NCBI RefSeq assembly: GCF_013201825.1
Contig: NZ_CP053836.1
Span: forward strand, 2,294,001 to 2,358,000
Direction of reading: 5' to 3'
Length of the DNA: 64,000 bases
DNA from: Halarcobacter ebronensis
GTDB lineage: Bacteria; Campylobacterota; Campylobacteria; Campylobacterales; Arcobacteraceae
Numbering within the stretch: position 1 is the first letter of the stretch; each line of letters starts with the position of its first letter. A program made the translations under genes and the position numbers. Below are positions 4,212 to 59,541 of this stretch, piece by piece. The notes beneath the pieces are model-generated. The model was not told the DNA's origin. It searched no databases and saw only the letters and a program-made list of their open reading frames with translations.

Positions 4212-5207
4212 ATGAGCAGATATCTTTCATCAAATCAACTTTGGGATACCATTTGTAAAAAATTATGTTATCCAAATAGTAATAGAGGGAAAAATAATAT
4301 TTCCATTAAAGATGATTATGGAGAAATAAATATTAATCATTTTAGTACAGGATTTGGAATTATTTACTCCTCTTTTATTGCAAATTTCTATGAAGATACT
4401 ATTGTTGAAAATTGTAATTCATATAACTCATCCTTTCTTAGTTTTAATACTGGAAATACAATTTATATGAAAGATTCTTTTATCAAAAACGAGATGCAAT
4501 GGGATTCCAACATTTGTCTAAACGGAGAACAATATTCAGGACATATTTCCCTTTCTAAACACAAAAAAAATCAACGAGTAATGATGCACTATATTGGTTT
4601 TGACAACAGTTTATTTAAAGATTTTACACAAAATAATCAAAATTACAAAAATATAAAACCTCTATATAAGGGTGAAAGAATAGAAGTAAATTTTAATAAT
4701 CATATTAATACTCACCAAAAAACTCTTCTTAATGATTTATTAGTTACCTCTGCATTAGAGGATAAACTTCAGACTCTATATTTAGAATCAAAACTTTTAG
4801 AACTTATTTATGCAAGTGTAAATTCTGTTGAAAATCAAAATAGAACAAATGAGATCTACTTAAGTTCACAAGATATAGAATCTTTAAACAGAGCTAAAAA
4901 AATTTTAATTGAAAATATAACAAATCCTCCATCTTTAAAAGAATTGGCTTACAAATCAGCAATAAATGAATTTAAACTAAAAAAAGGGTTTAAACAACTT
5001 TTTGGGAATACAGTTTATGGATTTCTACAAGAGTATAGATTGAATAAGGCTAAAAAGCTTCTTGAATCCAATGAGATAAATATAAACGAAGCCTCTTTAA
5101 TAGTTGGATATAAATGTTCAAGTCATTTTAGTAGAATATTTAAAAATCAGTTTGGAATAACTCCATTAGAGATAAAAAAAGAGAATCGTTGTAAAGTTTA
5201 TTGCTAA
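4212..5207 (+). CDS. AraC-family regulator, PchR-like
   Basis: 331 residues. The last ~105 residues hold two helix-turn-helix motifs in the AraC pattern (PSLKELAYKSAINEFKLKKG and INEASLIVGYKCSSHFSRIF, ending FGITPLEI). The N-terminal ~200 residues would be the ligand-sensing part, as in PchR and YbtA, which bind the ferric siderophore. The start at 4212 has an AAAGG ribosome-binding site at 4201-4205. It lies between two uptake units that share an operator-like element, so it is the likely activator of both and perhaps of itself. Confidence 0.85.
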   Translation: MSRYLSSNQLWDTICKKLCYPNSNRGKNNISIKDDYGEININHFSTGFGIIYSSFIANFYEDTIVENCNSYNSSFLSFNTGNTIYMKDSFIKNEMQWDSNICLNGEQYSGHISLSKHKKNQRVMMHYIGFDNSLFKDFTQNNQNYKNIKPLYKGERIEVNFNNHINTHQKTLLNDLLVTSALEDKLQTLYLESKLLELIYASVNSVENQNRTNEIYLSSQDIESLNRAKKILIENITNPPSLKELAYKSAINEFKLKKGFKQLFGNTVYGFLQEYRLNKAKKLLESNEININEASLIVGYKCSSHFSRIFKNQFGITPLEIKKENRCKVYC

Positions 5208-5243
5208 TTTATTATTCTAATTTCCCTTTGGAATAAAAAAAAA

Positions 5244-5272
5244 TCCTTCTATTCATACTCTAGTATTGATAA
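5244..5272 (+). promoter_or_regulatory. Bipartite operator-like element upstream of the second permease
   Basis: TCCTTCTATTCATA, six bases, then TATTGATAA, 75 bp before the ATG at 5348. It is identical in both blocks and in spacing to the element at 4158-4186 and is oriented toward the regulated gene in each case, as expected for one activator serving two promoters. Confidence 0.55.
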
Positions 5273-5347
5273 GATCTATTATTTAATATATAAATACTGA
5301 ACTATTTGAAAATAGATTTGATTGTAATATTAAAAGGAAAAAATTAA

Positions 5348-6568
5348 ATGAAAAAAAAACTTAATATTAAAGACTTGTCACTACTACTTAGCCTCTATAC
5401 CTCACAATATATCGGATTAGCTTTTTTTATGCAAGCTCTAATTGGTATACTTAGACAAAATGGTGTTTCCTTAGAAAATTTAGGTATTATTTATATGCTT
5501 GGACTATTTTGGGTATTTAGATTCTTGTGGGCACCATTTATAGATAAAATAGAATTTAAAAAAATTGGTCATTATAAAGGTTGGATTATAATATTTCAAT
5601 TTTTAATGACTATTATTCTTCTTGTTGTATCTATTTTTAATGTAATTAATGATCTTAAAACAATTATTATTTTAAGTATTCTATTTGCTTTTTTATCTTC
5701 TTCTCAAAGTATTGCACTTGATGGTTTTGTCTATAAATCTGTTTTTAAAAAACAAAGAGCAATTGCAATGTCTATTAAAACCTCAAGTGGTTTTATAGGA
5801 ATGGTTTTAGGTGGTGGGGTAGGATTAATTCTTTATACGCATATAGGTTGGATGTTCACACTAATAATTGTTGCTACAACTATGTTTATAGCACTTATTC
5901 AAATGCTATTTTATAAAGAGACAAAAACTAAAAAAGAGAATATACAAAAAAGTATTGATTATAAACAGTATATAAATTTTTGGAAAAGTAAGAAAAAATT
6001 ACAATGGCTAATATTATTACTTCTATATCCAGCCTCTATTAGTGCAGCTTATGGAATGAGTACACCCATTCTAGTTGATTTAGGATGGAGTTTAGATAAA
6101 ATAGGTTTTATTGTACATATTGTAGGTTATAGTATAGGAATACTTGCATCATTTACCAGTTCATGGTTTATTAAAAAATTTGGGAAGAAATATATTTTAA
6201 TTGGCGCTGCAATAGGACAAACATTAGGAACATTACTTTTATTAGTGTTATTCCATGATAGCAGTAATCTAACAACAATTTTAGTAATTGGATTCATATT
6301 TTCATCATATACGCCTTCTATGGTAATTATGTCAACATTTATGATGAATCAATCTTCACAAAAATCTCCTGCATCACAATTTGCCATACAACATAGTATA
6401 TTCTCATTTTCAGGAATAATCTTTAGTTCTTTGTCAGTCTCTTTATCAGGTATTTTTGGATATGAAAATATAATACTTACTTGTTCTTTTATTGGTTTAT
6501 TTGCTGTCTATATGTCAACAAAGATAGATAAAATAGTTAATATAAATACCTATTCTATAAAAAAGTAG
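5348..6568 (+). CDS. MFS siderophore permease, RhtX/FptX-like (paralog 2)
   Basis: 406 residues with about 12 membrane segments. It is a clear paralog of the permease at 183-1436 (shared blocks [20 protein letters not shown] and [20 protein letters not shown]). Unlike the first copy it stands alone, behind its own promoter region carrying the shared 29-bp element. It probably carries the ferric siderophore, or a variant of it, across the inner membrane. Two copies in one locus may mean two substrates, or import versus export. The sequence does not decide. Confidence 0.75.
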   Translation: MKKKLNIKDLSLLLSLYTSQYIGLAFFMQALIGILRQNGVSLENLGIIYMLGLFWVFRFLWAPFIDKIEFKKIGHYKGWIIIFQFLMTIILLVVSIFNVINDLKTIIILSILFAFLSSSQSIALDGFVYKSVFKKQRAIAMSIKTSSGFIGMVLGGGVGLILYTHIGWMFTLIIVATTMFIALIQMLFYKETKTKKENIQKSIDYKQYINFWKSKKKLQWLILLLLYPASISAAYGMSTPILVDLGWSLDKIGFIVHIVGYSIGILASFTSSWFIKKFGKKYILIGAAIGQTLGTLLLLVLFHDSSNLTTILVIGFIFSSYTPSMVIMSTFMMNQSSQKSPASQFAIQHSIFSFSGIIFSSLSVSLSGIFGYENIILTCSFIGLFAVYMSTKIDKIVNINTYSIKK

Positions 6569-7268: not shown

Positions 7269-7322
7269 AGTATTATTCAATTAAATTATGCTAAAATTAA
7301 CATTATATAAGAAGGCGTTTGC

Positions 7323-7913
7323 ATGGCAAGAGAGAAGCTTGAAAGAAAGTTAGAGTTAAAGCCCGTATCAAAATATTTCGGACCAAAAGATATTGAAGCA
7401 AAACAAGATGTAATCTTATTGCATGAAGAACTTGAAGCAATTCATTTAATGGACTCTTTTTGTATGTATCAAGAGGATGCTGCAAAAAGAATGAATGTAT
7501 CAAGAGCTACTTTTGCAAGAATTATCAAAAGTGCTAGAAAAAAGATTTCACTTGCGCTTATTACGGGAAGCAATATAAAAGTTCACGAAATAAAAAATGA
7601 ATTTCATGTCGCAGTATGCTCAAATAGTAATACTGAACTAGAATATGCAGATCCAGAAGCTAGGTATATCTGGATATTTTTTATAAAAGATTATAAATTA
7701 AAATCGGTAAACTGTATTAATAATCCTGCATATAATAATGAGGAAGATGCACCTTGTAATATTCTACCAGATGTTTTATACGATTATACAGTAAACTATT
7801 TTCTTGTGGGAGATATTGATTATGATTTAAAAATATCTCTTATTGCAAAAGGTATTTACCCTATTTTACAAGAAGAAGTTACAAAAGATAATATTGTAAG
7901 TATTTTTCAATAG
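7323..7913 (+). CDS. DUF134 (UPF0251) DNA-binding protein fused to a NifX-like domain
   Basis: 196 residues. Residues ~1-95 match the DUF134/UPF0251 family: a short basic start, then a sigma-like helix-turn-helix (YQEDAAKRMNVSRATFARII followed by KSARKKISLALITG). The remaining ~100 residues look like a NifX/FeMo-cofactor-binding domain. DUF134 proteins with this C-terminal domain are known, but I recall no settled function. The obvious inference is a transcription regulator that senses a metal cofactor. It is divergent from another NifX-like protein with repeats between them. The start is supported by a GAAGG-type site just upstream. Confidence 0.75.
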   Translation: MAREKLERKLELKPVSKYFGPKDIEAKQDVILLHEELEAIHLMDSFCMYQEDAAKRMNVSRATFARIIKSARKKISLALITGSNIKVHEIKNEFHVAVCSNSNTELEYADPEARYIWIFFIKDYKLKSVNCINNPAYNNEEDAPCNILPDVLYDYTVNYFLVGDIDYDLKISLIAKGIYPILQEEVTKDNIVSIFQ

Positions 7914-8783: not shown

Positions 8784-8914
8784 ATCTTCCCTCAAATTTA
8801 ATATTAAATATTATCAAAATATTAGCATGATATGGTTAACAAAAATTTAATATTTTGAATTTGCAACAATATTGCAACAAAATGTTAGTAGAATTAAAGA
8901 TTAAGGAGTTTATC

Positions 8915-9232
8915 ATGAAAAAGATTGAATCAGAAAGCTTAACAAATAGTGAAAACTCTGTTGACTACTACAATTACAAAAGTTTTGATTTTGAAAAAAA
9001 TATTGTATTTTCAGTAGTTGATAAATTTCTACCTGTCATTTTTTGGCTAGGACTCTCTATAATATTTATAGAAGCATTACATCAAAATATTGAGATATTT
9101 AATTGGAATTTTTTGGAAGGGTTATTTGGATTTTGTAGAATCTTTATACCTTTTGGATTAGGTCATATCTTACTGTTTTATGTAATTTACTCTATAAAAG
9201 ATATAAAGAAAAGATTAGATGCAAAAAAATAG
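8915..9232 (+). CDS. Small two-helix membrane protein, function unknown
   Basis: 105 residues starting MKKIESESLTNSENSVDYYN. The ATG at 8915 is chosen over an in-frame ATG at 8855 because AAGGAG at 8903-8908 precedes it at the right distance. A polar N-terminus is followed by two hydrophobic segments (around residues 30-60 and 70-95) and a short basic tail (KDIKKRLDAKK). I do not recognise the family. It lies in a short gap between htpX and a response regulator and has no clear operon partner. Confidence 0.6.
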   Translation: MKKIESESLTNSENSVDYYNYKSFDFEKNIVFSVVDKFLPVIFWLGLSIIFIEALHQNIEIFNWNFLEGLFGFCRIFIPFGLGHILLFYVIYSIKDIKKRLDAKK

Positions 9233-9233
9233 C

Positions 9234-9914
9234 TTAGACTAATCTACATCCACAACCTGTAATTGTTTGTATGAAATTAGGATCAGTTTTACATCTAAAT
9301 CTATGGATTAAACTTCTTGTTGTACTATTTGAAACAGCTTTATCTGGCCAAATATAGTTTTCTATATATTCAAAAGTTACAATTCTACCTTTATGCTCGA
9401 CTAAAAGTGTCAAAAAACTCTTTTCAGTTTTACTAAGTTTTATAGGTAAGTCATCATAATACAACATGCTAGTAGAACTTTCATAATAATACCTATCATA
9501 AATATGCTGCATATTTGAGTTAACTTTTTCAACCTTTGTATTTGTCATCTTTTTTATTGCAATTTTTATTGTAGAGTTTAATTCCTCTTTTTTAAAAGGT
9601 TTAACTAAAAATCCAATAGGATCACACTCCAATGCTCTATCAATAGTTGCATCATCACTATATGCTGTTAAAAATATAATAGGAATATCTCTTCTATTTT
9701 TAATATCAATTGCCGCTTGAATTCCATCTTGACTATTTTTTAAATTAATATCCATCAAAATAATATCAATAGGTTTGTTTGCTACATAATCTAAAGCCTG
9801 TTCATAATTTTTTGCATTTGCAACAATATCAAAACCTAAAAGTTTTAATGATCTATTTATATCTAAAGCAACAATGCTTTCATCTTCTACTATTAATATT
9901 TTTATTTTATCCAT
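9234..9914 (-). CDS. Two-component response regulator (receiver plus winged helix)
   Basis: 226 residues. The receiver domain has acidic residues near 10-11, the phosphorylation site D55 (ILMDINL), T83 (FLTAYSD) and K105-P106. The C-terminal ~90 residues look like an OmpR/PhoB-type winged-helix domain (LSKTEKSFLTLLVEHKGRIV ... TRSLIHRFRCKTD). It is an orphan here: no kinase is adjacent, and the nearest lies 11 kb away. A DNA-binding regulator phosphorylated by a distant kinase is the likely role. Confidence 0.85.
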   Translation of the reverse strand: MDKIKILIVEDESIVALDINRSLKLLGFDIVANAKNYEQALDYVANKPIDIILMDINLKNSQDGIQAAIDIKNRRDIPIIFLTAYSDDATIDRALECDPIGFLVKPFKKEELNSTIKIAIKKMTNTKVEKVNSNMQHIYDRYYYESSTSMLYYDDLPIKLSKTEKSFLTLLVEHKGRIVTFEYIENYIWPDKAVSNSTTRSLIHRFRCKTDPNFIQTITGCGCRLV

Positions 9915-10025
9915 ATTTAATTATAACAAAATATAGATAATGTTCCTTAATATTTCATACAATTTCGTATTAATTACTTTTTAATAAAAATAGATATAAT
10001 AAAAAACAATATAAAAAGGTCTCAT

Positions 10026-10526
10026 ATGAAAAGACTCTTCATAATTAGACATGCAAAATCTGATTGGACAAATCCAGATTTGGATGATTTTGACAGACCT
10101 CTAAATGAAAGAGGTAAAAAAGATCTTCCTTTTATGGCAAAAAGAGTTGCCAAAAGAGAGATATGCCCCGATCTTATTATCTCTTCACCAGCTTTTAGAG
10201 CAAGAAAAACTGCAAAAGGTTTTGCAAAAGAGATTGGCTATTGTAAAAAAATTATGTATAATGAATACCTTTATGAACCCTCACTTAGAACAATTTTAGA
10301 TGTTCTAAACTTTATTGATGATCAATATGATGATATTTTTTTAGTTGGGCACAATCCTGGTTTAAATCTATTGGCTTTTTATCTTATTGATTTTAATGAA
10401 AATCTACCTACATGTGGTATTCTTGAAATAAAATTTAAATGTGATTCATGGAGAGAAGTATGTAGAAAAAATGCAAAATTTATATCCTTTGATTACCCTA
10501 AAAAGAATATAAAAAAAGTTCCATAA
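10026..10526 (+). CDS. SixA-like histidine phosphatase (copy 1)
   Basis: 166 residues of the histidine-phosphatase superfamily. The catalytic RHAKSDW places R8 and H9 at the N-terminus, RAR near residue 58-60 gives a second arginine, and H109 lies in LVGHNPG. SixA removes phosphate from histidine in phosphorelay or nitrogen-PTS proteins. The short length fits SixA rather than phosphoglycerate mutase. A second copy follows 80 bp downstream. Confidence 0.85.
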   Translation: MKRLFIIRHAKSDWTNPDLDDFDRPLNERGKKDLPFMAKRVAKREICPDLIISSPAFRARKTAKGFAKEIGYCKKIMYNEYLYEPSLRTILDVLNFIDDQYDDIFLVGHNPGLNLLAFYLIDFNENLPTCGILEIKFKCDSWREVCRKNAKFISFDYPKKNIKKVP

Positions 10527-10605
10527 AAAATTGATATTTTTTCAATTCTATTTTATTTCAAATAGATTAAAATCATAATTATAAATAACCAAAGGCTATT
10601 ACAAA

Positions 10606-11082
10606 ATGAAAGAGCTATATATTATAAGACATGCTCAAAAAGAAAATACCGATAATTACGAATATGATTATGATGTTCCATTAACAAAAAGAGGTATTGA
10701 AGCTGCAAAAAATTTAGGTACTTTACTAAAAAGAAAAAAAGTTTTACCTGATTTAATTGTTTCAAGCCCAGCTATTAGAGCAAGACAAAGTGCAGAGGTA
10801 ATTGCAAAAGAGATAGATTACAACAAAGGGGTAATGTATAATGAAGTAATTTATCAAGCATATCTAAATGAATTAGTTGAATCAATTAGTTATACTTATG
10901 ATAATATTAACTCTCTTATGATAGTAGGACATAATCCTTCATTAACAGCACTAGCGATTACTTTTACAAATTTTAAAACTGAACTGCAAATGGCAACAGC
11001 AATAAAAATTGAGTTTGATTGTGACTCTTGGACACAAATAGATAGAAATAATTCAAGGTTTGTAGAGCTTTACGAACTCTAG
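10606..11082 (+). CDS. SixA-like histidine phosphatase (copy 2)
   Basis: 158 residues, parallel to copy 1 along its length, with R8-H9 in IIRHAQ, RAR at 58-60 and H109 in VGHNPS. The phosphatase residues are intact, so both copies should be active. The pair probably arose by tandem duplication followed by divergence, since many surface residues differ. The stop codon overlaps the convergent flavoprotein gene by 4 bp. Confidence 0.83.
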   Translation: MKELYIIRHAQKENTDNYEYDYDVPLTKRGIEAAKNLGTLLKRKKVLPDLIVSSPAIRARQSAEVIAKEIDYNKGVMYNEVIYQAYLNELVESISYTYDNINSLMIVGHNPSLTALAITFTNFKTELQMATAIKIEFDCDSWTQIDRNNSRFVELYEL

Positions 11083-12320
11083 TTCAAAAGCTCACCAGCA
11101 AGGTTACCACTTGCAAAAGACCACTGAAGATTGTAACCTCCACAAGGGCCGTCTAAATCCATCACTTCACCACAAAAATATAGTCCTTCAATGATTTTAC
11201 TCTGCATTGTTTTTGGATTTATCTCTTTTAAACTTACTCCACCTCTTGTTATCATCGCTTTTTCAAAACCTATATGATCTACAATTGTTAAAGGAGTTGA
11301 AACTAATATCTTAATAAGATTTTGTCTAATTGTTCCTTCTAAATCTTTAAACCGTTTATTATAATCAGCGCCAACCAATTTACAAAGTTCATTTAATACT
11401 GAAAAAGGCAAAAGGTGTTCAAGTACTTCTTTAATATTGGCATCATTATGTTTTAAAGAGTACTCTTTTATATATAAAAAAAGCTCATCTTCATTTAAAC
11501 CTTTTATCATATTTATTATAAGTGGCACTTCTTTATACTTTTCAAGTAGTGGTGTAATTTCTCTAGAAAAATCTAATATAACGGGTCCTCTTAACCCCTT
11601 TGAAGTAAATATTAAATCTCCACAAGCTTTTAGTTTTTTTGCTTTTTTCAAATCAACTCTTATTTGAGCTTTTGCAATTGTATCTGCTCTACAATTTGAA
11701 ACCCAACTCTCTTTGGTTATTAATGGTAACATTGCAGGGTAAAGTTCTGTAATTTTGTGTCCTAAAGATTTTGCAAATTTATAACCATCTCCATTTGCAC
11801 CTAAGCTTGAAAAACCAAGTCCTCCTGTTGCAACAATTACACAAGTTGAATAGTAGTTAGCTATTTGGCTTTTAACCCCTAAAATTTTCTCATTTTCACA
11901 TAAAATATCAACTATTTTAGTCTCTTTTTTTACCTCAATATTTTGTTTTAATATTTCATTTTCTAAAGCGTTTATTATTGTTTCAGAACTGTGGCTTACA
12001 GGAAAAACTCTAAAGCCATCTGGAATATGGGTTTCAACTCCTATAGTATTTAAAAATTCTATCAAACTCTTATAATCAAACTTTTCTAATGCATCTTGCA
12101 TAAAACGTCCATTTTTACCAAAAGAGTTCATAAAATCTTCATTTGTAAGGGTATTAGTTAAGTTGCATTTCCCTCCACCAGTTGCTTTTAATTTAGGTCC
12201 AAGCTTACTTTGTTGTTCACATAAAAGTACTCTTTTACCACTTCTTGCAGCAACTATGGAAGCAATCATTCCAGCAGCTCCAGAACCAATAACTATTAAA
12301 TCATATTGAATTTTTTCCAT
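11079..12320 (-). CDS. NAD(P)/FAD-dependent oxidoreductase, HI0933/BaiN family
   Basis: 413 residues. The Rossmann FAD motif GSGAAGMIAS begins near residue 12. It is followed by the family-specific GPKLKATGGGKCNLTN stretch, and near the C-terminus by GLYFCGEVMDLDGPCGGYNL, which contacts the flavin. This matches the HI0933-like flavoprotein family. The physiological substrate is generally unknown, although BaiN in gut bacteria acts on bile acids. It is a single-gene unit here. Confidence 0.85.
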   Translation of the reverse strand: MEKIQYDLIVIGSGAAGMIASIVAARSGKRVLLCEQQSKLGPKLKATGGGKCNLTNTLTNEDFMNSFGKNGRFMQDALEKFDYKSLIEFLNTIGVETHIPDGFRVFPVSHSSETIINALENEILKQNIEVKKETKIVDILCENEKILGVKSQIANYYSTCVIVATGGLGFSSLGANGDGYKFAKSLGHKITELYPAMLPLITKESWVSNCRADTIAKAQIRVDLKKAKKLKACGDLIFTSKGLRGPVILDFSREITPLLEKYKEVPLIINMIKGLNEDELFLYIKEYSLKHNDANIKEVLEHLLPFSVLNELCKLVGADYNKRFKDLEGTIRQNLIKILVSTPLTIVDHIGFEKAMITRGGVSLKEINPKTMQSKIIEGLYFCGEVMDLDGPCGGYNLQWSFASGNLAGELLN

Positions 12321-53341: not shown

Positions 53342-53611
53342 CTAATCACCGTAGTGAGTCCACATTCTTAAGATTCTAACAATCTTTTGCTCCTCTTTTA
53401 CTTCATAAATGATTCTATGTTGAATATTTATTCTTCTAGAGTAAGCCCCTGTTAGATTCCCAACAAGCTTTTCATATGGTGGTGGATTTTCAAAGGGATT
53501 TTTTTTGATTATCTCTATTAACTCTTTTGCTTTTTTATCTAATTTAGCGCCTGTTAGATTTTTTGCATCCTTTTGAGCTTGTTTGCTGTAAAGGATTTTA
53601 TACTCTACCAT
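53342..53611 (-). CDS. Txe/YoeB-family toxin
   Basis: 89 residues with the RelE-superfamily fold: YKILYSKQAQKDAKNLTGAK at the start, GAYSRRINIQHRIIYEV, and the C-terminal RMWTHYGD that supplies the YoeB histidine and tyrosine. YoeB cuts mRNA in the ribosome A site. It overlaps the antitoxin gene by 7 bp. Confidence 0.9.
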   Translation of the reverse strand: MVEYKILYSKQAQKDAKNLTGAKLDKKAKELIEIIKKNPFENPPPYEKLVGNLTGAYSRRINIQHRIIYEVKEEQKIVRILRMWTHYGD

Positions 53612-53850
53612 TTGATATCTTCACTAAACTCATCATCACTTTGTGCCATACCCTCTTGGATAGATTTTGCCATATTTGGAATAGAGTTTAAATATAAAGT
53701 CTCCTCAATAGCATTCCAATCCTCTTGAGAGAGCATTACAGCATTATTTCTTTTACCTGTAATTAGTATTGGCTCATGTGTTAATGCTGTTTCATCCATA
53801 AGATTATATATATCTGCTCTAACTTGGCTTGCTGGCATTACTTTTGTCAT
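53605..53850 (-). CDS. YefM/Phd-family antitoxin
   Basis: 81 residues: an N-terminal DNA-binding fold (VMPASQVRADIYNLMDETAL, then EPILITGKRNNAVMLSQEDW) and an acidic C-terminus that binds the toxin. It lies upstream of and overlaps the YoeB-type gene, the normal order for this system, and should repress their promoter. Confidence 0.9.
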   Translation of the reverse strand: MTKVMPASQVRADIYNLMDETALTHEPILITGKRNNAVMLSQEDWNAIEETLYLNSIPNMAKSIQEGMAQSDDEFSEDIKW

Positions 53851-54141: not shown

Positions 54142-55611
54142 CTATACTTTAGTTTTAATTTTTTTATTAAATTTTCTTATTACATTTTTATTAATATTTG
54201 CAACATTACAATAAAACTTATTTATGACTAAAGGGTTCCCAGATATATCTTCATTTGCATTTCTTACCATACACATAGTGCAATACTCTTTATCTGAACA
54301 TGTTAAACATTGTGGAAAATCTTTTTTCTTTAAATCTCTTAAATAATTAACTTTTTCAGAGTTATACCAAATGTTTTTAAGAGAAGCATTTAATATATTT
54401 CCTACTGAGTAATCTTGCCAACCTGCACAAGGATATACATTACCATTTTCAGAAATACAAATTGACGAATGACAAACACTACAAACAAAATCATTTTCTG
54501 AAATATTCTTTTTTTTCTCAGCTTCTTTTTCTATTTCAATAACATATTCTGAATCATTTTCAACTATATTTTCAATTATCTCATTTACATCGTCAATTGA
54601 TAGACGATGCTTTAAATTTTCGCAAGAATGATTATATTTTGCTAAAATTAAATAATCATTACCAACAGATATATTATTTTTTTTAGCCCATTTTACGACA
54701 TTATTATGACAGTTTTTATTCTCTTTCAATATGGGACAGCTTATCTTTAATGGAATATCATTTTCAACAAGTTTTAAAATTGCATTCTTTGTTTTTTCAA
54801 AACTTCCTTTCATTTGAGTTATTTCATCGTGAATATTTGGATTCATTGAATATAGTGAGACTTGAACACCCAAAAGAGGATTAGATTTCATTTCTTTAAG
54901 AATTTTTTCATTTAATAAAGTCAAATTACTAAGTACACTAACAGAAAAATTATTTTTTCTACATTCTTTTAAAAAATTACAAAAATCTTTATGCAACATT
55001 GGTTCTCCACCACTGATAGTAATGTGCAATAAATTCATTTCTCTACTTTGATTCAAAATATTATAAAATAAATCAGAATCAATATTATTAATTTTATTTT
55101 CATGAGGAATATAACAATGAATACATCGTTCATTACACTTACTTGTTATTTCAATATGTAAACTTGTTAATTGTGGTTTATTATTAAAAAAAGCTTGAAA
55201 ATAATCTTGAGTTGACATTTGATTATTTGATAAATTCTTTTTAAAAGTTGTATCTAGTATTTTAGTATATGAAAACTTTTCATCTTTTTCATCACATTCT
55301 CTAAAAGTATCTCCAGAAGTAATAAATCCAGCTTTTTCAAGAGTACTGTAAAACTCTATCACATCTCTTTCTAATAACTTAATATTTATATCAGAATAAA
55401 TATTACTGATTTTTATTAATAATTCACCAATAATTTGAGGATGATTATCTAAAACAGAAAAAAAAACTGCTCCACTCTCTGATAATATTTTATCACCAAT
55501 ATCTTCCCTATTATCATCTAATCGTTTATATGCAAAATTTCTATTATCTGTTATATATCCAAAAGAATCATAATATCTAAACAATATGTTAGATTTTTTT
55601 TTAAAAAACAT
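54142..55611 (-). CDS. Radical SAM/SPASM peptide maturase with PqqD-like N-terminus
   Basis: 489 residues. Residues ~1-100 form a PqqD-like leader-peptide-binding domain (ILSESGAVFFSVLDNHPQII). The radical SAM core starts near 150 with CNERCIHC (C159, C163, C166), which holds the catalytic 4Fe-4S cluster. The C-terminal ~110 residues contain a cysteine-rich SPASM domain (VCSVCHSSICIS, then CLTCSDKEYCTMC) for auxiliary clusters. Directly upstream is the small precursor-like gene at 55668-55787. This is the architecture of RiPP maturases that form thioether or C-C cross-links. Confidence 0.85.
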   Translation of the reverse strand: MFFKKKSNILFRYYDSFGYITDNRNFAYKRLDDNREDIGDKILSESGAVFFSVLDNHPQIIGELLIKISNIYSDINIKLLERDVIEFYSTLEKAGFITSGDTFRECDEKDEKFSYTKILDTTFKKNLSNNQMSTQDYFQAFFNNKPQLTSLHIEITSKCNERCIHCYIPHENKINNIDSDLFYNILNQSREMNLLHITISGGEPMLHKDFCNFLKECRKNNFSVSVLSNLTLLNEKILKEMKSNPLLGVQVSLYSMNPNIHDEITQMKGSFEKTKNAILKLVENDIPLKISCPILKENKNCHNNVVKWAKKNNISVGNDYLILAKYNHSCENLKHRLSIDDVNEIIENIVENDSEYVIEIEKEAEKKKNISENDFVCSVCHSSICISENGNVYPCAGWQDYSVGNILNASLKNIWYNSEKVNYLRDLKKKDFPQCLTCSDKEYCTMCMVRNANEDISGNPLVINKFYCNVANINKNVIRKFNKKIKTKV

Positions 55612-55667
55612 ATTATATTTCCTTTAACCCAGGTAATGCTTTTTAATACACACTACCTGATAAAATA

Positions 55668-55787
55668 TTATTTACCTCCACGTGGTCCAGGTGGATTACA
55701 AGGTCTACCACTAGGCTTACTATTTGGACGGCAATCAGCCATTTGAATAGTACTTTCTGCCAATATCATTGGTTTTTCATAAGCCAT
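55668..55787 (-). CDS. RiPP precursor-like peptide (39 residues)
   Basis: 39 residues starting MAYEKPMILAESTIQMA and ending CNPPGPRGGK, with two cysteines (19 and 30). The first half is leader-like: EKPMILAES recalls the EKPxIxAxN leaders of several radical-SAM-linked peptides. The second half is rich in Pro, Gly and Arg with the two Cys. AAAGGAG lies six bases before the ATG. It ends 56 bp before the maturase on the same strand. This gene is too short for normal annotation but has every expected feature of a substrate for the maturase. Confidence 0.75.
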   Translation of the reverse strand: MAYEKPMILAESTIQMADCRPNSKPSGRPCNPPGPRGGK

Positions 55788-55920
55788 TCTTTACTCCTTT
55801 CCCCTATTATAATATTTTAGAATATTATGATAAAGTAAATAATAAATATATTATCAAAATATATTTAAAAAATAATAATTTTAATTAAAAAAAGTGATTT
55901 AAATGATTAGATTTTGAAAG

Positions 55921-56004
55921 AAATAAAGGCGGAGAGGAAAACAGATTATAGGAGTTTACTGAAGTAAATGACTATATCTGTTTTTCTATCCAACGCCTAT
56001 TTAT
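55921..56004. repeat. Nested inverted repeat downstream of purH
   Basis: Three nested arms: an outer imperfect AAATAAAGGCG / CGCCTATTTAT, a middle perfect AAAACAGAT (55938-55946) / ATCTGTTTT (55976-55984), and an inner TTTACT (55955-55960) / AGTAAA (55963-55968). As RNA it would fold into one long hairpin. It may be a MITE-like element or a small structured RNA. Confidence 0.5.
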
Positions 56005-56010
56005 GAGAAA

Positions 56011-56031
56011 AGATGATTATTTAAATCATCT
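56011..56031. terminator. Terminator after purH
   Basis: AGATGATT / AATCATCT 8-bp stem with a 5-base loop, followed by T-rich sequence on both strands. It lies just past the purH stop codon. Confidence 0.75.
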
Positions 56032-57572: not shown

Positions 57573-57726
57573 AATAAATCCTCTGTTATCTTAATTTTTT
57601 TGCGATTATACTCAAAAGTTCATTAGTCTTTTCTTGTTTAAACCTTTGTATATTTTATATATAACTATAAGATTTTTTACTGTCTAGATTTTGTTATGAT
57701 TTATAAATTATTTTTTGGAAAACAGT

Positions 57727-59541
57727 ATGAGTGAAATAAACCTTTTATGGATATTATTAAGTTCATTTTTAGTTTTTCTAATGCAATTTGGCTTCTCTTT
57801 AATAGAAACTGGAACTGTTAGAACTAAAAATACAATTAATGTTGCCATGAAAAATCTAATTGATACTATCTTTAGTGTTGTGTTTTTCTGGCTTATTGGT
57901 TTTGGATTGATGTTTGGTACGGATAGTTTTGGACTAATTGGTACCGATAAATTTTTAATTGATGGCTCTGATTTTGAATTAAATGCAATCTTTCTTTTTC
58001 AAGCAATGTTTGCTGCAACAGCAACTACAATTATTTCAGGAGCTGTAGCAGAGAGAATAAAATTCAATGGTTATATTGTTGTTGCTATTTTAGTAACTGC
58101 TTTTATCTACCCAATAGTTGGTCACTGGGCTTGGAATAGCCAAGGTTGGCTTGCCAAATTAGGTTTTATAGATTTTGCAGGTTCAACTGTTGTACACTCA
58201 GTTGGAGCTTGGATAGGGTTAGCAGGAACAATAGTACTTGGACCAAGACTTGGAAAATTTAAAAATGGTCAAGTTAAATATTTCTCTCCTAGCAATCATA
58301 ATCTGATAGTTTTTGGAGTATTTATGCTCTTTTTTGCTTGGTTTGGCTTTAATGGTGGAAGTTTATTAGCAATCGACTTTAGGGTTACTTCAATTTTAAT
58401 GAATACACTTATCTCTGCAGTATTTGGAGGAGTTGGTGCTTGGTTTATCTCTTTAGTATCTAAAGAAAAACTTGAAGTTGAAATATTAAGTTTTGGAATA
58501 ATTGCCGGACTTGTTGGAATAACAGCAGGTTGTAATAATTTGACTTTATACGAATCAGCTTTTGTTGGTTTTGTCTCAACTTTTATAATGCATTTTTCAG
58601 ACCAATTTTTAACAAAAAAATTAAAAATAGATGATCCGTTAAGTGCTGTAAGTATTCACGGATTTGCAGGAGTTTGGGGAACTATTGCAGTTGGAATTTT
58701 TGCAGTTCCAGCTGAAGGCATGACAAGATTTGATTTTATAACTATACAAACAATAGGTGTTTTAAGTGCTTTTATCTTCTCTTTTATTTTAGGTCTTGCC
58801 CTATTTCTTTTTTTACATAAATTAAATCTGTTAAGAGTTAGAAAAAAACATGAAGTTCTTGGACTTAATACAAGTGAACATAATGCAAGACTTCCTTGGG
58901 TTGAAACTATTGAGAGTATTATTGGTATTATGAAAACAGGGAATATTCAAAAAAAGATATATGAAGAGAGGGATACAGAAGTAGGTATTGTTGCAAAATT
59001 TTTTAATATTCTTTTAGAAAATTTGCGAGAAAGAAACACAGAACTTACAACAAATAATAAAACTCTTCAGCAAAAAGCCTATTTTGATACCTTAACAAAA
59101 GTGTTAAATAGAAGTGGTCTTTTTGAGAAGATAAACAAAGAGTTAAACAATGAAGAGTATTGTGTTTCAATACTTGATATTGACAAATTCAAATTAATAA
59201 ATGACACCTATGGACATGATGTAGGTGATGTTGTTTTAAAAGAGTTGGCTTTTTTAATCTCTAGCAAAATAAGAGTTGATGATATTTTTGCAAGATGGGG
59301 AGGTGAAGAGTTTATTTTGATTATAAACAATAATAATCTTACTATTGCCGAGTCTCTTTGTGAAAAAATAAGAAAAGAGGTTGAATCTAATACTTTTTCA
59401 AAAGTTGGCAAAGTTACAATATCTCTTGGAATTAGCAACTTTAAAAATAGTAGACAAAAATTTGATGACGTCTTAAAAAATGCAGATAAAGCTTTATATG
59501 ATGCAAAAGATGCAGGAAGAAACAGAGTTTTTGTATTTTAA
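57727..59541 (+). CDS. Ammonium transporter fused to a GGDEF diguanylate cyclase
   Basis: 604 residues from the ATG at 57727; a TTG four codons earlier is in frame. Residues ~1-385 are an Amt protein: 11 helices, the FGFSLIETGTVRTKN start, the GHWAWNSQGWLA vestibule, the twin His in HSVGAW and IHGFAGVWG. A linker (~400-440) leads to a GGDEF domain with DTLTKVLNRSGLF and an active-type RWGGEEF near residue 524. It would make cyclic di-GMP in response to ammonium. Confidence 0.9.
   Translation: MSEINLLWILLSSFLVFLMQFGFSLIETGTVRTKNTINVAMKNLIDTIFSVVFFWLIGFGLMFGTDSFGLIGTDKFLIDGSDFELNAIFLFQAMFAATATTIISGAVAERIKFNGYIVVAILVTAFIYPIVGHWAWNSQGWLAKLGFIDFAGSTVVHSVGAWIGLAGTIVLGPRLGKFKNGQVKYFSPSNHNLIVFGVFMLFFAWFGFNGGSLLAIDFRVTSILMNTLISAVFGGVGAWFISLVSKEKLEVEILSFGIIAGLVGITAGCNNLTLYESAFVGFVSTFIMHFSDQFLTKKLKIDDPLSAVSIHGFAGVWGTIAVGIFAVPAEGMTRFDFITIQTIGVLSAFIFSFILGLALFLFLHKLNLLRVRKKHEVLGLNTSEHNARLPWVETIESIIGIMKTGNIQKKIYEERDTEVGIVAKFFNILLENLRERNTELTTNNKTLQQKAYFDTLTKVLNRSGLFEKINKELNNEEYCVSILDIDKFKLINDTYGHDVGDVVLKELAFLISSKIRVDDIFARWGGEEFILIINNNNLTIAESLCEKIRKEVESNTFSKVGKVTISLGISNFKNSRQKFDDVLKNADKALYDAKDAGRNRVFVF

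Follow-up and report, generated by a model that had tools for sequence, protein, structure and literature searches.

The streptide maturase SuiB and SkfB, the maturase of the sporulation killing factor, combine an RRE with a radical SAM and a SPASM domain. In SuiB and related enzymes the leader of the precursor docks on the PqqD-like domain. The sactipeptide and ranthipeptide maturases AlbA, StsB, PapB and CteB have the same domain layout and a substrate with a cysteine-containing core. GeoRSP, ACGX and other hypothetical NCBIfam systems are likewise based on radical SAM/SPASM enzymes that are presumed to modify short peptides.

The locus described here lies in a 64,000-nucleotide stretch of the Halarcobacter ebronensis genome, the whole of which is referred to as the window. 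A gene for a 39-residue peptide is followed on the same strand by a radical SAM/SPASM maturase (Table 1). Most RiPP cores vary fast. The core of this peptide, by contrast, has hardly changed between several phyla, although the enzyme has drifted to about half identity. The best explanation overall, with a probability of roughly 0.6, is a mobile RiPP cassette in which the leader would dock on the enzyme and thioethers at the core cysteines are the likeliest modification.

Table 1. Features of the locus in the window and of related loci (L numbers)
Feature	Position	Strand	Evidence
Radical SAM/SPASM peptide maturase, 489 aa	54142..55611	-	ORF, profiles, fold
Probable N-terminal PqqD-like (RRE) region, residues 1 to about 100	55312..55611	-	Weak profile match and fold
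Radical SAM domain, residues 153-308, C159/C163/C166	54688..55155	-	Profile and alignment
SPASM region, residues 377-468	54208..54483	-	Profile and alignment
Hairpin between precursor and maturase, 10-bp stem	55630..55659	-	Folding z -2.1
Precursor peptide gene, 39 aa, MAYEKPMILAESTIQMADCRPNSKPSGRPCNPPGPRGGK	55668..55787	-	Sequence/ORFs and homologues
Putative leader, residues 1-18	55734..55787	-	Comparison of 17 precursors; leader/core border inferred
Core, residues 19-39, CRPNSKPSGRPCNPPGPRGGK	55671..55733	-	Comparison of 17 precursors
Ribosome binding site of precursor, GGGGAAAGGAG	55793..55803	-	Sequence
Promoter-like site TTATCA-16-TATAAT 5' of precursor	55806..55833	-	Consensus match only
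Phage precursors, two lineages	L018 351-467 (-); L063 ~5962-6078 (-); L064; L067 (start codon cut off)		
TPR-DUF2971 protein directly 3' of maturase	L003 9583-11379; L005 9502-11034; L071 4248-5765 (-)		

The precursor gene and its surroundings

The original prediction named the peptide gene together with a strong ribosome site, and that site is present (ggggaaaggag). Neither Pfam nor NCBIfam contains a family that matches the peptide. Among 17 distinct precursors the leader positions Y3, P6, A10, M16 and A17 are invariant, as are C19, P25, G27, R28, P29 and C30 in the core, and position 24 is always K or R. Mean identity was 0.89 in the stretch from C19 to C30 vs 0.64 in the leader. The core pattern C-x-x-N-S-[KR]-P-S-G-R-P-C thus has 89% mean identity, while the maturases have drifted to 46-65%. 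The cores are 18-21 residues long with a net charge of +2 to +6, five or six prolines and almost no hydrophobic residue.

The two genes are separated by 56 nt. The intergenic hairpin is found in the same place in the E. coli plasmid copy L014 (z -1.9) and in L003 (z -6.8). Promoter-like sites are no commoner than in shuffled sequence, and the candidate 5' of the precursor is assigned from the consensus alone. A long imperfect hairpin was observed between purH and the cassette (window 55905-56030, z -5), with short stretches of its arms repeated at three other sites in the genome. It may be what is left of a small mobile element, or else it may terminate purH. The only Rfam match, a microRNA model on the upstream palindrome, was below threshold and was taken as chance.

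Domains and fold of the maturase

The predicted radical SAM and SPASM domains were both recovered with profile scores above the cut-off (Radical_SAM PF04055, 78 bits, cut-off 29.5, E 1e-21; SPASM PF13186, 40 bits, cut-off 21.5, E 4e-10). The three cysteines assigned to the radical SAM cluster (CNERCIHC) are invariant across 11 maturase homologues, and so are C377, C380, C385, C395, C435, C438, C444, C447 and C468 of the SPASM region. For the PqqD-like domain, which had also been predicted, the profile match is weak. The PqqD profile gave 15.7 bits at the N terminus (E 0.019), which is under the Pfam cut-off of 23.4. The predicted model of the enzyme, of medium confidence (mean pLDDT 71), begins with strands and then three helices. 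SuiB aligns with this model over residues 2-469 (Z 21) and SkfB over residues 9-450, and the top Foldseek ranks were SuiB, SkfB and a sactipeptide enzyme (5why). A PqqD-like N-terminal region is thereby supported by the modelled fold despite the low profile score.

None of the named radical SAM maturase families in NCBIfam gave a score above cut-off, the best being 98 bits vs 500. PqqE (82.7 bits vs 381) and MftC (80 vs 265) are among those under which the enzyme falls. The plasmid maturases and that of the distant Bacteroidales relative L072 are likewise under every NCBIfam family cut-off. The sole matches to models of defence systems were to viperin, through the shared radical SAM domain, and the enzyme is not called viperin.

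Conservation of the pair

Relatives of the maturase were sought in 84,980 species genomes. Eleven were found, 58-68% identical over the matched part, ten of which have upstream DNA and could be checked for a precursor. This search for the precursor next to the maturase had been set beforehand as a refuting test, which the original reading withstood. In nine of the ten loci the same peptide is encoded 55-71 nt upstream of the maturase; the remaining locus, from a Peptococcaceae MAG, retains just a broken maturase that lacks the N-terminal part. The genomes with the pair belong to several Bacteroidota families and a Deferribacteraceae MAG, and one contig was binned as Parcubacteria but may be misbinned. 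The tree does not settle in which order the copies of the Bacteroidota, the window and the Deferribacteraceae branched.

In 13 precursor/maturase pairs the mean amino acid identity was 0.73 for the precursor vs 0.61 for the maturase. Four-fold degenerate sites differ by 0.54 in the precursor and 0.55 in the maturase. Equal divergence at these sites together with a higher peptide identity means that the precursor is neither younger than the enzyme gene nor held at the RNA level, and that the residues are what is kept. As judged from these substitutions, selection acts on the peptide at the amino acid level. A recent spread as the cause of the fixed core was rejected, because the four-fold sites of the precursor are as diverged as those of the maturase.

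A more distant pair was found in a Bacteroidales genome (G440, locus L072), with a maturase 42% identical (4899-6350) and a short upstream ORF encoding the precursor MKKYQKPKVVAKNNPQGSYAAGCPAKGTGTSTYCRSCERSS. The leader type Y-x-K-P-x-V-x-A is kept in this peptide; the core is unrelated but contains cysteine. A leader type kept with a different core corresponds to the usual split between leader and core in RiPPs. NCBIfam holds no family model for this sister system. Pattern matches in L065, L066 and L069 were taken as chance, the frame not being precursor-like.

The original reading of the two genes as precursor and maturase is borne out by the persistence of the pair in distantly related bacteria as well as on plasmids and in phages, by the leader/core pattern, by the selection on the peptide and by the fold of the enzyme. 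That they form a real RiPP pair can be held with high confidence.

Mobility of the cassette

The cassette of the window is situated between mgsA and purH, where the compared species have other genes. Close to the window it is rare: the maturase was absent from all 119 other relatives, and 297 other genomes of the phylum all lacked the core pattern. In Bacteroidales the maturase was found in five of 295 genomes, the distant relative in G440 included.

F-type conjugative plasmids from E. coli, Salmonella and Photobacterium damselae carry maturases with 53% identity. The precursor MSYSKPTVLAKSSTYMAQCRPNSKPSGRPCNPPGPSGR lies 75-77 nt upstream of the maturase in the four records read and is unannotated in them, so the pair would not appear as a RiPP system in standard annotation. 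A tblastn search of plasmids with the 39-residue peptide gave no match although copies exist; the low-complexity filter or the length of the peptide probably masks them. The plasmid copy gave no match in complete E. coli genomes either, and since the plasmids concerned are in PLSDB the outcome depends on the collection.

A resolvase gene is located upstream of the cassette on the E. coli plasmids, with a diverged partial copy of it downstream. In L014 these form direct repeats around the cassette (7289-7599 and 9608-9917, 77-84% identity), possibly a trace of how the cassette moves. A Mu-like phage contig has a G+C content of 65-67% and the cassette inside it 38%. A viral contig has tyrosine recombinases on both sides of the cassette and a precursor variant with three cysteines, CRPNRRPCGRPC. 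The two genes are best read as a self-contained, horizontally mobile cassette. The plasmid, phage and recombinase settings suggest a trait useful to mobile DNA, in competition, defence or signalling.

Two further features were observed in the window. A YefM/YoeB-type toxin-antitoxin pair is directly downstream of the cassette (53342-53850, minus strand), and an ammonium-transporter-like protein with a fused C-terminal GGDEF-type domain, as recognised by eye, is encoded at 57715-59541 (plus strand).

Phage precursors without a maturase

In two phage lineages the precursor is encoded but the records contain no full maturase. The first is a 93.9-kb contig with the precursor MIYTKPKILAQSTVQMAECRPNSRPSGRPCNPPKPGGV, in which one weak radical SAM-like match was found (E 7e-6, 75 residues). 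The second comprises contigs of 34, 25 and 5 kb with the precursor MNYSKPRILAQSTLPMAQCITPSRPSGRPCNPPTPSGR, the start codon being cut off in the 25-kb contig. Genes for a terminase and an HslV-like peptidase adjoin the precursor in this lineage. All these phage records may be fragments. The phage precursors may borrow the host enzyme, serve as decoys or act unmodified. They are an oddity that could reveal the purpose of the peptide.

Neighbouring genes

As had been predicted, the window has neither a transporter gene nor a RiPP protease gene next to the pair. The ORFs and annotations read around the copies in the window, on plasmids and in genomes showed no protease, exporter or immunity gene; a classical bacteriocin cluster has a dedicated exporter and an immunity gene beside the precursor, and no such arrangement was found in the copies read. 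Cleavage and any export must then rely on the host, or else the peptide works inside the cell that makes it.

A TPR protein is encoded 35-108 nt downstream of the maturase in five Bacteroidota (L003-L006 and L071). All three of those scanned have a C-terminal DUF2971, and in L004 and L006 this place is taken by a shorter TPR gene. Nothing was read from the predicted fold of the DUF2971 half (pLDDT below 50). No such gene stands next to the cassette in the window, on the plasmids, in the Deferribacteraceae and Odoribacter loci or in the Mu-like phage. The TPR-DUF2971 protein is possibly a receptor or effector, not a core part of the system. Downstream of the maturase in the Odoribacter locus (L010) lies a protein kinase gene (8799-11129) whose product has a weak HD-associated match at the C terminus and matches the kinase models of defence systems.

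Mechanism and alternative explanations

In the mobile RiPP cassette proposed here, the intergenic hairpin probably leads to more precursor than enzyme. Leader residues 1-18 would dock on the N-terminal PqqD-like domain, and the radical SAM cluster and the SPASM auxiliary clusters would modify the core CRPNSKPSGRPC. The invariant cysteines would most likely be joined to backbone or side-chain carbons nearby, giving sactionine- or ranthionine-type thioethers with a change of about -2 Da each. The leader would presumably be cut off by a host protease encoded elsewhere. The product would be a small, polar and cationic peptide rich in proline, glycine and arginine.

A modification centred on the cysteines is probable, and for a thioether in particular the odds are about even. 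Both C19 and C30 are kept in all 17 precursors, conserved core cysteines being a trait of sactipeptides and ranthipeptides. F, W and Y are absent from the core in all 17, and with them the aromatic acceptor of cyclophane-type (triceptide) RiPPs, which makes aryl cross-links unlikely. The Glu-Tyr or Val-Tyr substrate of PQQ/mycofactocin-type systems is not found, tyrosine being absent from the core. Thioethers are thus the likeliest type, as there is no aromatic acceptor and the cysteines never vary.

The enzyme could instead target a different residue, leaving the cysteines to form a disulfide or bind a metal. It might, for example, act by epimerisation or oxidation, or cross-link Arg, Lys, Asn or Pro through a C-C or C-N bond. 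The heptad [KR]P[SC]GRPC varies no more than the cysteines do, and no named sactipeptide or ranthipeptide maturase matches near its cut-off. The same fold also serves many chemistries, both SuiB (Lys-Trp) and the epimerase EpeE matching the model. Such a non-thioether modification nevertheless seems the less probable choice, since the two cysteines persist in every precursor while Asn22, Ser23 and Asn31 vary.

The near-fixed core suggests one conserved target, as is implied by its constancy while the enzyme drifts. Bacteriocins seldom have a core as fixed as this, which counts against the best explanation, as do the low PqqD score, the medium confidence of the model and the absence of a protease or exporter gene beside the pair. 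An antibacterial product, perhaps acting inside the target cell like proline-rich antimicrobial peptides, would fit the length, charge and proline content of the core, its near lack of hydrophobic residues and its presence on plasmids, where bacteriocins are often found. It is an unlikely product all the same, as the copies read showed neither an immunity gene nor an export gene beside them and the sequence varies very little, unlike that of most bacteriocins.

Somewhat more doubtful is a cofactor-like or signal molecule for the producing cell, sensed for example by the downstream TPR-DUF2971 protein in several Bacteroidota. TPR proteins are known peptide receptors (RRNPP systems), and the near-fixed core, the lack of exporter and immunity genes and the TPR genes close downstream in the five Bacteroidota agree with such a role. 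The copies that have no TPR gene beside them speak against it, as does a core without the tyrosine or other aromatic residue used by PQQ and mycofactocin precursors.

A cassette active in host-phage conflict, with an intracellular modified peptide and precursor-only phages that supply a decoy substrate or borrow the host maturase, is improbable. The idea that the short ORF is an attenuator leader peptide regulating the radical SAM gene, suggested by its position just 5' of the hairpin upstream of the enzyme gene and its many Pro and Arg codons, can practically be dismissed given the selection along the whole peptide (Y3, P6, A10, M16 and A17 included), its presence in phages without the gene and the peptide-maturase fold of the enzyme.

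With its few parts, small size and natural copies on E. coli plasmids, the RiPP cassette lends itself to direct tests of chemistry and function in a laboratory strain.

Comparison with known systems

The system had been predicted to be undescribed, and this holds in the sources covered: no peptide family in NCBIfam or Pfam, no NCBIfam equivalog for the enzyme. The core string is absent from the open-access papers searched, the closed-access radical SAM RiPP atlas, which may include the family as an uncharacterised cluster, being outside this search. Searches of the literature on such systems and a look at a Bacteroidales RiPP survey gave no description.

SuiB and SkfB are the best structural matches to the maturase, with 13-18% identity in the structural alignments, and their substrates show no sequence relationship to the precursor. 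SuiB forms a Lys-Trp bond, whereas Trp does not occur here. The structures 5why and 5wgg are also among the matches to the model. The AlbA, SkfB, StsB and PapB profiles match the maturase with 62-65 bits vs cut-offs of 300-850. In contrast to the sactipeptide and ranthipeptide systems, the core has only two cysteines and six prolines, and no exporter is nearby. GeoRSP- and ACGX-type models give 71-95 bits for the maturase vs a cut-off of 400, and none of their peptide models recognises the precursor. The L072 pair has the leader type in common and the core unrelated. The pair is best read as a new family within the radical SAM/SPASM RiPPs.
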